In this document: piece by piece, positions 23,701 to 27,991 of the stretch
Position numbering within the stretch: the stretch's first letter is position 1
Layout of the letters: the number at the start of each line of letters is the position of its first letter
Assembly (NCBI GenBank): GCA_001899175.1
Contig: MKVH01000024.1
Location: forward strand, 744,001-808,000
Reading direction: 5' to 3'
DNA length: 64,000 nucleotides
Source: Candidatus Kapaibacterium thiocyanatum
GTDB lineage: Bacteria; Bacteroidota; Ignavibacteria; Kapaibacteriales; Kapaibacteriaceae
Made by a program: the position numbers and the translations under genes
Notes under the pieces: model-generated
Told to the model about the DNA's origin: nothing
What the model saw: only the letters and a program-made list of their open reading frames with translations
Database searches by the model: none

Positions 23701-24117
23701 TTGGCCGGATATACGAAACCCCGTACGCAGAAAGGTCGCGCAGTCCTGTGTGCACGTATCGCCCAGGACAAGCTGGCACACGATATCCTGATCCTCGACC
23801 TGTCCGAGATCGAAAGCGCACCCGCCGATTTCTTCGTCATCCTTACCTGTGATTCCGAATCGCAGATACGTGCCGTCGTGGACGCCATCGCCACGAACGT
23901 GAAGCAGGTCGGCTTCGGCAATGCCCGCACCGAAGGACGGAACACGTCGTCGTGGGTCATCCTCGACTACTTCGACATCGTCATCCATGTCATGCTTCCC
24001 GATGCCCGTGACTTCTACAAGCTCGAACGCCTGTGGGGAGATGCGAAGGCCTTCACGCTGACGTCTGCCGGTGCCGCCAAGGCGGTCGCGACGACGAAGG
24101 CACGGAGGGCCGAGTAA
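23701..24117 (+). CDS. rsfS: Ribosomal silencing factor RsfS
   Basis: 138-residue RsfS/YbeB/Iojap protein, which binds ribosomal protein L14 and blocks subunit joining when nutrients are poor. Family blocks seen are ADFFVILTCDSESQIRAVVD, SSWVILDYFDIVIHVM and the ending FYKLERLWGDA. It starts at a TTG supported by AGAGGA. A short Ala/Lys-rich tail follows the domain. It is followed after one base by argS, with argS's Shine-Dalgarno (GGAGG, 24104-24108) inside the rsfS end. Confidence 0.92.
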   Translation: MAGYTKPRTQKGRAVLCARIAQDKLAHDILILDLSEIESAPADFFVILTCDSESQIRAVVDAIATNVKQVGFGNARTEGRNTSSWVILDYFDIVIHVMLPDARDFYKLERLWGDAKAFTLTSAGAAKAVATTKARRAE

Positions 24118-24118
24118 G

Positions 24119-25762
24119 ATGATGCAGCAGTATATCGAGCCGCACATCCGCACCGCCCTGACGTCCATCGGCGTCGATGCCGACACCCCGATCCATTTCG
24201 AGATTCCGCGTCAGGAGGGGCATGGCCACCTCTCGACGACGGTCGCCATGTCGCTCGCGAAGATCCGCAAGAGCAATCCCCGCGCACTGGCCCAGGAACT
24301 CGTGACGGCGATCGGAGAGAACGTGCCTCTGGTCGAACGTATCGATATCGCAGGTCCCGGCTTCATCAACATCACCTTCGCACCGGCCGTCTACCATGCC
24401 ATGCTGCGCGATCTCTCCGCACTTGGCGCGACCATCGGCAGGAGTGACGTGGGTGCAGGCCGTACGGTCAACGTCGAATACGTGAGCGCCAACCCGACGG
24501 GGCAGCTTCATGCAGGACATGGCCGCAACTGCGCCGTCGGCGATACGCTGGCCAACCTGTTCCAGTGGTGCGGTTATCATACGACCCGCGAATACTACTT
24601 CAACAACGCCGGCAACCAGATGAACATGCTGGGCAAGAGTATCTATGCCCGCTATCGTCAGGTGCTCGGCGACGAAGACTACCCGTTCCCCGAAGACGGA
24701 TATCATGGCGACTATCCCCGCACGATCGCCGAGGAGATCCGGAACGAAGTGGGCGATCGCTATCGCGAGGAATCCGCCGAAGCTCTCGTCTTCTGCCGCA
24801 AGCGTGGAGAAGAATGGTGCTTCGCCGCCATCAAGCGTACGCTCGACGTGCTGAACATCCATCACGACGTATTCTTCAACGAGGACTCGCTCTACAGCAG
24901 CGGCAGGGTGGAACAGACCATCGCCGATCTCCGCGCGAAAGGACTCGTCTACGAGAAGGATGGTGCTACGTGGTTCGCACTGTCGCAGCTCGGACAGCAG
25001 CAGGACAAGGTGATCGTGAAAAGCACCGGCGAGCCGACGTACAGGCTTCCCGACATCGCCTATCACCGCGACAAACTGGAGCGAGGTTTCGACGTCATCG
25101 TCGACATCTTCGGCGCCGATCATATCGCGACCATTCCCGACGTCCTGGCCGGTGTGCAGGCCCTCGGCTACGATACGTCGCGCGTGAAGGTCGTCATCCA
25201 TCAGATGGTGTCGTTCATCGAGAACGGCGAGGCCGTCAAGTTCTCCAAGCGCTCGGGCAAGTCCTTCACCCTCGACGATCTCATCGATGAAGTGGGAGCG
25301 GACGTCGTCCGGTTCTTCTTCATCATGCGTGCCGTGGGTACGCACCTCGAATTCGATCTGGGACTCGCGAAGGAGGAAGGGGACAAGAATCCCGTCTTCT
25401 ATCTTCAGTATGCCCATGCCCGTATCTGCTCCATCCTGCGCAAGGCCGCCGAGAAGGGCGTCGCCATCGACGAAGGAGCGGACGTCGGCGTACTCGTCCA
25501 TCCGAAGGAGATCGAACTGATCACGCTGCTGTCCCGCATGCGCACCGTCGTCGAACGGGCCTGCGAGCATCTCGAACCGCATACGCTGGCCGAATACCTG
25601 CGCGATCTCGCAGCCGCGTACCATAACTTCTATCATGACTGCCGCATCCTCGGAAGCGAACCCGCCCTGGAATCGGCCCGTCTCCTGCTGGCCGATGTCA
25701 CCCGTCGTGCCATGTACAACGGCCTGATGATTCTCGGCGTGAAGGCTCCGGAAGTGATGTAA
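24119..25762 (+). CDS. argS: Arginyl-tRNA synthetase
   Basis: 547-residue class I synthetase charging tRNA-Arg. The N-terminal additional domain precedes the HIGH-type signature NPTGQLHAGHGRN. The KMSKS equivalent is KFSKRSGKSF. The C-terminal anticodon-binding domain (for example LQYAHARICSILRKA and AAAYHNFYHDCRIL) ends in the conserved MYNGLMILGVKAPEVM. Start at 24119 rather than 24071 because GGAGG lies 10 bases upstream and the longer form would overlap rsfS with an arginine-rich, non-family N-terminus. Confidence 0.96.
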   Translation: MMQQYIEPHIRTALTSIGVDADTPIHFEIPRQEGHGHLSTTVAMSLAKIRKSNPRALAQELVTAIGENVPLVERIDIAGPGFINITFAPAVYHAMLRDLSALGATIGRSDVGAGRTVNVEYVSANPTGQLHAGHGRNCAVGDTLANLFQWCGYHTTREYYFNNAGNQMNMLGKSIYARYRQVLGDEDYPFPEDGYHGDYPRTIAEEIRNEVGDRYREESAEALVFCRKRGEEWCFAAIKRTLDVLNIHHDVFFNEDSLYSSGRVEQTIADLRAKGLVYEKDGATWFALSQLGQQQDKVIVKSTGEPTYRLPDIAYHRDKLERGFDVIVDIFGADHIATIPDVLAGVQALGYDTSRVKVVIHQMVSFIENGEAVKFSKRSGKSFTLDDLIDEVGADVVRFFFIMRAVGTHLEFDLGLAKEEGDKNPVFYLQYAHARICSILRKAAEKGVAIDEGADVGVLVHPKEIELITLLSRMRTVVERACEHLEPHTLAEYLRDLAAAYHNFYHDCRILGSEPALESARLLLADVTRRAMYNGLMILGVKAPEVM

Positions 25763-25871
25763 GGTCCTGGTGTTACGGGGACCTGGCCGATTTCGGACGA
25801 TACGGGTGAAAACTCAAAACCGGCGAGAATCGTCCACATCGGTCGGGTTCCACCAACCATGAAGAACTGCA

Positions 25872-26765
25872 TTGTCCACGCGTGAATACTTTTACGACCT
25901 TTCCGACAGAGGTATACTGTCGCTGAACGGTCTGGAACAGGACGATCCCTGGTTCGTGGATTTCTTCTACAGGCGTCTCGCACCCACGGCCAATCCGATG
26001 TTCCCGGACTACCCGTTCGTCAGCCGCTGCGGCGACGAAATGAACTACGTCAAGCCTGCCGATACTCCCATCGTGTTCACGAGAATGGAACAAGGACGTC
26101 TGTTCTATGGCATCTCGTTATCCGTTCCCTTCAATGCCGCGAGTCTGGTGTACTCACCCGATGGCGTTCTCTATCACGCAGCGCCGGTAGGTGAACGGGG
26201 CCGCCTCGTTCCCGCTCTGGCGACGGAGCTGGGATGTCATATCGAGCACTGGGGCCCCATGTACGCTCTCCACGATCCGTCGACGGGTGTAGCGACCGTG
26301 ATCCCGCCCATGACGATTCCCGACGGCCTGCATCTGCTGAGGCCGAAGGAAGATAACATGTGCGTCGGCTGCGGCATGGCCAATCCGTGGTCGCTGCGGT
26401 TGAGCTTCGTCTTCGATGAAGGGGATGGAGTCGTGCGCACGTGGCTCGCTCCGAACGAACGCATGAATGGCGCCATGGAAACGGTACATGGTGGCTTCGT
26501 GTCGTTGCTGCTCGACGAAACGATGGGCAAGTCCCTGAGCGTTCGTGGTATCAAGGCGCCGACGGCACAGTTGAACGTCCGGTTCCGTGCGCCGATGATG
26601 ATGCATGTCCAGCATGAAATCCGTTCGTGGATCGAACGGATCGATGGCAGGAAGAACTTCCTCAAGGGTGTGATCTGCAGGGCCGACGACCCCGATCGTG
26701 TCGTCGCCGAGGCCGATGCTCTCTTCATCACCGTTCGTCCCGAGTCGATTCCACAAATCGTATGA
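25872..26765 (+). CDS. UPF0598/DUF4505-like domain fused to hotdog thioesterase
   Basis: 297-residue protein in one uninterrupted frame with two parts. Residues 1 to about 155 closely resemble the UPF0598 family, named for a human protein (C8orf82): REYFYDLSDRGIL, DFFYRRLAPT, YPFVSRCGDEMNYVKPADTP, VFTRM and GVLYHAAP. Residues about 165-297 form a PaaI-like hotdog thioesterase: MCVGCGMANPWSLRL, then TVHGGFVSLLLDETMG, then a strand with APTAQLNVRFRAP. Start is a TTG; the in-frame TGA at 25860 excludes longer forms. The metallophosphoesterase start overlaps its stop (ATGA). Function of UPF0598 is unknown; the fusion hints at acyl-CoA or related thioester chemistry. Confidence 0.75.
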   Translation: MSTREYFYDLSDRGILSLNGLEQDDPWFVDFFYRRLAPTANPMFPDYPFVSRCGDEMNYVKPADTPIVFTRMEQGRLFYGISLSVPFNAASLVYSPDGVLYHAAPVGERGRLVPALATELGCHIEHWGPMYALHDPSTGVATVIPPMTIPDGLHLLRPKEDNMCVGCGMANPWSLRLSFVFDEGDGVVRTWLAPNERMNGAMETVHGGFVSLLLDETMGKSLSVRGIKAPTAQLNVRFRAPMMMHVQHEIRSWIERIDGRKNFLKGVICRADDPDRVVAEADALFITVRPESIPQIV

Positions 26766-27991
26766 ACCCTCCGAATCTGATAACGTTCTCCATCTGGGTC
26801 GGTGTCATCCAGGCCGTCATGGATCTCTACGTCCTGTCGAGATGGACGTCCTTCGTGCGCGGTAACGACATGAATCGATGGTGGTACCGATCCTCCTGGA
26901 TCGTCGCCGCCGTGATGTTCTGCATCTACTGGTACGTCGTCTATCGTCGTCACTTCTTCCGCATGGATGGCTTCGATGTCTTCCTGTTCGGCATCGTGAC
27001 GCTGTGGACATTGCCCAAGATCGGCATCCTGCCCGTCCTGCTCATACGCGACATCGTCCAGGGAATCCGTTGGATCGTCGGGAAGATGCGCAGACCGGCA
27101 GCGAAGGTGTCGCCCGTGGAAACGCAGGCGACCCACGACGGTACGCGTCGTGCATTCCTCTCGAAGGCGGGATGGGCTACCGCCGTGGTGCCGTATGCCA
27201 TGGTAGGCAATGGAATGTATCGGACGCTCTACGACTTCAAGGTCCATCGCATCGACGTTCCGCTGCCCAATCTTCCGAAGGCCTTCGACGGCATGCGCAT
27301 CGTCCAGATCTCGGACGTCCATGCTGGCTCCTTCCCCGACCACCGGCCGTTCCAGGAAGCACGCAGGATGATCGACGAGCTCAAGCCGGATTCGATCGTC
27401 ATCACGGGCGACTTCGTCAACGCCCTTCCGCGCGAACTCACGACGCTCGGACGCGAGCTCGAGCTCCTGAAGGCGCCCGAAGGCGTCTATGCATCGCTCG
27501 GTAATCACGATCATTACAATACCGCCGAAGAACATCGACAGTTGATCAAGGCTATCGAGGACCGGGGTATCGACCTCCTCGTCAATCGCCATCGTCGTCT
27601 GTCGATCGGTAACGAGTCCATCGTCATCGCAGGTACGGACAATACGGGATTCAAGCAGCAGTATGCCCGGCTGGGCAGTACTCTCGACGGTGTGAGCGAG
27701 AACGATGCCGTCATCCTGCTGGCGCACGATCCGACGTACTGGGAAAAGGCGATTCTCGGCAAGACGCCTGTGGGCCTCATGCTGAGCGGCCATACGCACG
27801 GTGGACAGTTCGGGGTGAATCTCCTCGGCTTCGAGTGGAGTCCGGCGCAGTACGTCTACAAGCAATGGGCCGGACTGTATCGTACCGGTTCGCAGTACGT
27901 GTACGTGAATCGTGGCCTCGGCACGGTCGGACCTCCCTTGCGTATCGGAGTGCCGCCGGAGATCACCGAGATCACGCTACGTAGAGCGTGA
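26762..27991 (+). CDS. Membrane-anchored metallophosphoesterase (YkuE/YaeI-like)
   Basis: 409-residue protein. Three or four hydrophobic segments occupy residues 1 to about 100, with a further Tat-like patch TRRAFLSKAGWATAVVPYA at ~122-145 just before the catalytic domain. The calcineurin-type metal motifs are all present: ISDVHAG, ITGDFVN, LGNHDHYN and SGHTHGGQFG. Relatives include periplasmic-facing phosphoesterases such as YkuE and YaeI (UDP-diacylglucosamine-type or lipid substrates in some). The ATG overlaps the stop of the upstream fusion protein. Substrate not determinable. Confidence 0.88.
   Translation: MNPPNLITFSIWVGVIQAVMDLYVLSRWTSFVRGNDMNRWWYRSSWIVAAVMFCIYWYVVYRRHFFRMDGFDVFLFGIVTLWTLPKIGILPVLLIRDIVQGIRWIVGKMRRPAAKVSPVETQATHDGTRRAFLSKAGWATAVVPYAMVGNGMYRTLYDFKVHRIDVPLPNLPKAFDGMRIVQISDVHAGSFPDHRPFQEARRMIDELKPDSIVITGDFVNALPRELTTLGRELELLKAPEGVYASLGNHDHYNTAEEHRQLIKAIEDRGIDLLVNRHRRLSIGNESIVIAGTDNTGFKQQYARLGSTLDGVSENDAVILLAHDPTYWEKAILGKTPVGLMLSGHTHGGQFGVNLLGFEWSPAQYVYKQWAGLYRTGSQYVYVNRGLGTVGPPLRIGVPPEITEITLRRA

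Follow-up and report, generated by a model that had tools for sequence, protein, structure and literature searches.

UPF0598 (DUF4505) is the family of human C8orf82, a protein of the mitochondrial matrix that is counted among the uncharacterized proteins where PMC7066081 mentions it. The passages of the 2010 literature that deal with the family restrict it to Metazoa and, citing a personal communication of 2010, unite it with DUF1285 in one superfamily (PMC2954204). In the titles, abstract openings and passages that name C8orf82 or UPF0598/DUF4505, no function is given for either. DUF1285 (PF06938/PF21028) is represented by the structures 2re3 (SPO0140) and 2ra9 (Sbal_2486). The parts of the structure paper that treat its cleft describe a conserved feature with a likely nucleotide-based ligand and name Nudix hydrolases as frequent gene neighbours; the cleft was termed a binding site because it holds no strictly conserved residues (PMC2954208).

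The UPF0598 member described here differs from this picture in being bacterial and in carrying a hotdog domain at its C-terminus. It is encoded in the window, by which we mean the whole stretch of 64,000 nucleotides that was analysed, and the features of the locus are as follows.

24071..25762, plus strand: arginyl-tRNA synthetase gene (argS; PF05746/PF00750/PF03485), the conserved upstream neighbour in the family.
25872-26765, plus strand: UPF0598/DUF4505–hotdog fused open reading frame, 297 amino acids, TTG start, single unbroken frame.
25872..26321, plus strand: UPF0598/DUF4505 domain, residues 1 to about 150, predicted DUF1285 fold (PF14956, AlphaFold2, conservation).
26322..26762, plus strand: hotdog thioesterase domain, residues about 151-297 (PF03061, THEM4 alignment, VIA).
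26763..26765, plus strand: TGA stop codon of the fused gene, overlapping the ATG (26762-26764) of the following gene.
26762-27991, plus strand: membrane metallophosphoesterase, YaeI/LpxG-like, 409 amino acids (PF00149, 55 bits).

The closest in-frame stop 5' of the fused frame is a TGA at 25860, and the window sequence contains neither a stop nor a frame break between the two halves. Against the Pfam models, the N-terminal half reached 61.7 bits with PF14956 (E = 1e-16, cut-off 27.3) and the C-terminal half 23.5 bits with PF03061 (4HBT, cut-off 20.6). The first-pass annotation had proposed from motif blocks that a UPF0598/DUF4505-like domain is joined to a thioesterase in a continuous frame at 25872-26765; the profiles bear out the UPF0598/DUF4505 assignment, and the coordinates given were exact. 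PF14956 matches this one gene in the whole genome, so it is single-copy. The DUF1285 models PF06938 and PF21028 gave no Pfam match in the protein up to E = 10. The link between the window protein and human C8orf82 runs solely through the Pfam model PF14956.

The whole fused protein was predicted by AlphaFold2 with a pLDDT of 95.6 and a pTM of 0.88. Alignment of the complete model with VIA returned hotdogs only, so the UPF0598 half was predicted (pLDDT 95.0) and searched separately. Foldseek then gave exactly three matches at E < 0.001, all of them DUF1285 chains (2re3, 2ra9), and VIA gave Z = 11.1 for 2ra9 (120 residues) and 10.5 for 2re3 (138 residues), the next entry scoring 3.2. The UPF0598 half is thus predicted to share the two-subdomain fold of DUF1285 over 120-138 residues, which supports the superfamily statement of 2010. 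No known enzyme with this fold was found among the solved structures searched, and sequence searches for PDB relatives of DUF4505, with a single sequence or a profile, found none. A profile–profile comparison by hhalign aligned DUF4505 with DUF1285-like spirochaete proteins over 92 columns (E = 2e-5, probability 77%); these proteins lie below the DUF1285 cut-off yet reach 2re3 by profile.

The near-invariant residues of the UPF0598 half are R4, Y6, Y8, D25, C53-G-x-E56-x-N58, Y101-H102 and G110-R111. The motif blocks REYFY..D..G, CGxExN, GxLYHxAP and GR are common to the window protein and other bacterial members, and 34 bacterial proteins, fused and standalone, agree without exception at R4, Y8, G14, C53, E56 and N58; Y101-H102 and R111 vary among the three fused Spirochaetota. 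DUF4505 in this respect contrasts with DUF1285, since it has near-invariant C/E/N/R residues whereas strictly conserved residues are absent from the cleft of DUF1285 (PMC2954208).

For the hotdog half, VIA gave Z = 20.0 to 2ov9 (RHA08564) and 17.3 to 4gah (human THEM4), and CoA-bound hotdogs rank among the top fold matches. A phmmer comparison of this half with THEM4 gave E = 1.2e-8, with H206, D215 and T231 aligned to the His, Asp and Thr of THEM4; the Asp and Thr we take to be the catalytic residues of that enzyme. The motifs comprise CxxCG at 164-168, H206-G-G, D215-E216 and T231, the last three at THEM4 active-site positions; among 35 fused proteins, 34-35 retain each of H206, D215 and T231. 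With THEM4, THEM5, THEM2 and RHA08564 the half has in common the hotdog fold and, in the active site, HGG and Asp, at an identity of about 17-28%; Thr is also present at the THEM4 position. Human THEM4 differs in having another N-terminal region, without DUF4505. The earlier label 'PaaI-like thioesterase' agrees with this fold and motif but not with the NCBIfam model of the PaaI-type domain, TIGR00369, to which the half scored 13.7 bits against a cut-off of 36.6. Because that cut-off is missed, 'hotdog thioesterase domain' is the better name for the C-terminal half, with RHA08564 and THEM4 as its nearest solved relatives.

The occurrence of the fusion was surveyed in related and more distant genomes. 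PF14956 is present in 46 of 99 relatives, in open reading frames of at least 267 amino acids apart from two at contig ends. DUF4505 was found in 18 genomes of a phylum-wide sample (n = 395), all 18 belonging to the order of the window. Every complete DUF4505 gene read from this order is fused. Besides three Spirochaetota, more than 40 genomes of the Kapabacteria order carry this fusion. Public records of DUF4505 loci are labelled mainly Candidatus Kapaibacterium, Ignavibacteria or Chlorobiota. The genome-wide DUF4505 scan took two short conserved peptides as its query, by which diverged members would be missed. A search of 119 genomes of the order with a clade-specific profile of the hotdog half yielded strong matches (E < 1e-34) exclusively in frames of at least 267 amino acids, the next-ranked matches having E = 1e-22 or weaker, and found no close standalone hotdog. 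One genome carries, apart from its main gene, a second and partial fused-type hotdog (G066:C96:93949-94182, 81.5 bits) in an open frame of 77 codons.

The other fused proteins share 34-63% identity with the window protein, indicating deep divergence, and in both halves the computable pairs gave ω values of 0.03-0.16, indicating purifying selection. An assembly or missing-stop artefact was ruled out, as genomes assembled independently of one another contain the same join, and the fusion is confirmed as genuine, old and conserved. In the domain tree one clade holds all fused sequences, including those of the three spirochaetes (support 99/95), which points to a single fusion event with later horizontal transfer. 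The row L045, marked 'alone' in this tree, ends at a contig end with its frame open to the end of the locus. DUF4505 relatives were not found on plasmids (tblastn) or on viral contigs. A record labelled 'Bradyrhizobiaceae bacterium' (L066), which would suggest a transfer of DUF4505 to Pseudomonadota, was not counted as one: its match falls at the same place as G011, a genome of the window's family. The fused genes of this record and of one labelled 'Melioribacter roseus' (L056) are placed within the Kapabacteria clade.

DUF4505 was found in 15 of 247 Spirochaetota genomes. Within Leptospirales it is present in half of the genomes (15/30), and among these 15 it is standalone in 11, joined to the same hotdog in three and joined to a GNAT acetyltransferase in one (L081 1165-2289, genome G573; PF13673, 59 bits). 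GNAT is a second, independent CoA-using fusion partner of DUF4505. No hotdog or thioesterase gene adjoins the standalone Leptospirales genes within the flanks of about 8 kb that were examined. A rhodanese/DUF1858 gene on the opposite strand adjoins the standalone gene in L058 (8454-8999, profile-checked), and a similar neighbour stands in L059, L061, L064 and L067, the profile check being of the L058 copy only.

Within the fused proteins, either half can lose conserved residues separately. The UPF0598 half of genus g25 (L113, L114) has lost R4, C53 and N58 while the hotdog is intact; conversely, the hotdog of one species (G058; L009/L036, at L036 5487-6338) is without HGG, Glu and Thr, and its UPF0598 half is intact. 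Judged from these sequences, the coupling of UPF0598 to the hotdog is therefore not obligatory. Two further species of this genus (L115, L116) are similar in sequence to L113/L114. The contig coverage of L036 is low (3.3).

Gene neighbourhoods of the same-fold family were read at 11 proteobacterial DUF1285 loci, taken from plasmid and chromid records and not a random sample. The gene directly downstream of DUF1285 bears a CoA pyrophosphatase signature at eight of these loci, from six genera; it is absent after DUF1285 in Paracoccus (two loci) and Acinetobacter. Four of the eight were scored against NF007980 and all four lie above its cut-off, one being also so annotated. The loci concerned, with those of two Kapabacteria that lack DUF4505 and have a true DUF1285 gene two genes from paaA (phenylacetyl-CoA epoxidase), are listed here.

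L135, L137-L139, L141-L144: DUF1285 gene followed by a CoA pyrophosphatase gene.
L152, 2839-5245: DUF1285–paaA locus.
L153, 2548-4966: DUF1285–paaA locus.

The CoA pyrophosphatase identity sharpens the published neighbour note, which in the passage concerned says only 'Nudix hydrolases' (PMC2954208). This enzyme (NF007980, NudL type) is a neighbour of DUF1285 but was not found beside DUF4505 genes, the motif being absent near every DUF4505 gene examined. The DUF1285/UPF0598 superfamily is repeatedly tied to CoA chemistry, through the acyl-CoA-type hotdog, the acetyl-CoA-using GNAT and CoA pyrophosphatase, which is an association and not a proof. Fusion to a hotdog or a GNAT domain is common among proteins in general. 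The first-pass annotation suggested a role of UPF0598 in acyl-thioester metabolism, and by this guilt by association the suggestion is a reasonable hypothesis, with a better foundation than a single fusion would give: the GNAT fusion and the CoA pyrophosphatase after DUF1285 speak for it; the mostly standalone state in Leptospirales, the lack of a thioesterase beside those genes examined and the separate decay of the halves speak against it.

The fused gene of the window and the phosphoesterase gene overlap by 4 nt (ATGA). A phosphoesterase gene lies 3' of the fused gene in all 16 loci of the family, at a spacing of −4 to +12 nt and with the 4 nt overlap in ten, and the metallophosphoesterase is a probable translationally coupled operon partner in the family of the window. 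Its scores were 105.4 bits against NF008460 (YaeI, cut-off 188) and 98.6 bits against NF033458 (LpxG, cut-off 350). Outside this family the phosphoesterase coupling is mostly missing: in the majority of the remaining fused lineages a different gene follows.

We favour, at slightly less than an even chance, a protein of two domains that serves acyl-CoA metabolism: acyl-CoA would be hydrolysed by the hotdog, and the UPF0598 half, with a CoA-type nucleotide as its ligand, would regulate the hotdog or feed it. The hotdog domain would cleave the acyl-CoA thioester with D215 together with H206, the glycines next to it and T231, by analogy with THEM4; both the catalysis and the substrate we infer. 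The UPF0598 domain, with its DUF1285-type fold and conserved polar set, would bind CoA, either free or acylated, or one of its breakdown products, and may regulate the thioesterase half or supply it. This putative ligand and the regulation between the halves we infer likewise; the AlphaFold confidence does not bear on functional interaction between them. The 11 standalone genes among the 15 of Leptospirales and the separate decay of the halves count against a tight link to the thioesterase.

These same two observations would suit a historical fusion, in which two housekeeping domains without relation to each other became joined a single time in an ancestor and were passed on together, and UPF0598 stands outside acyl-thioester chemistry, as would the single origin and the general readiness of hotdog domains to fuse. 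Such an accident sits poorly with the retention of the join over deep divergence in an order that has no clade-specific standalone hotdog, and with the independent GNAT partner and the CoA gene neighbours of DUF1285; we regard it as unlikely. The UPF0598 half could instead be an enzyme itself, its near-invariant Cys-Gly-x-Glu-x-Asn, Tyr-His and Gly-Arg residues acting on a nucleotide, CoA-linked or otherwise, with the hotdog performing an adjacent step on the same metabolite. Separate decay would fit two activities, and the six residues invariant over 34 bacterial sequences make DUF4505 look more enzyme-like than DUF1285, in whose cleft the published description sees no strict conservation (PMC2954208). 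The fold, however, is without a known enzyme among solved structures, L113 and L114 are without C53 and N58 and still fused, and Y101-H102 and R111 are variable in the three fused Spirochaetota, so that we give an enzymatic UPF0598 half a distinctly low probability.

The downstream gene would allow a further explanation, an operon for envelope lipids in which the thioesterase sets the supply of acyl-ACP or acyl-CoA and the phosphoesterase acts on a nucleotide-diphospho-lipid. The close spacing in 16 of 16 family loci and the matches to the LpxG and YaeI models agree with it, but both scores fall under the curated cut-offs and the coupling is missing in most other fused lineages; we consider it very improbable. 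In the boldest reading, DUF1285 and UPF0598/DUF4505 would form a superfamily that binds CoA or acyl-CoA and partners CoA-consuming enzymes, and for that reason human C8orf82 might be a mitochondrial CoA/acyl-CoA handling factor. This reading, including the transfer of the role to the human protein, we put forward tentatively, as possible but on balance doubtful. The stable fusion, the DUF1285-like predicted fold and the repeated CoA partners nevertheless give C8orf82 a specific testable role, CoA/acyl-CoA binding, which, if true, would also provide one for the proteobacterial family DUF1285.

The suggestion that UPF0598 serves in quality control found no support beyond translation genes loosely nearby, which code for ArgS, RsfS and a look-alike of D-Tyr-tRNA deacylase, the last named by eye. 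The neighbours of the fused gene in other Kapabacteria differ from those in the window's family. Sequence inspection by eye placed the D-Tyr-tRNA deacylase look-alike upstream in L032, L035 and L038, and a nicotinate phosphoribosyltransferase look-alike downstream in L036 and L040.
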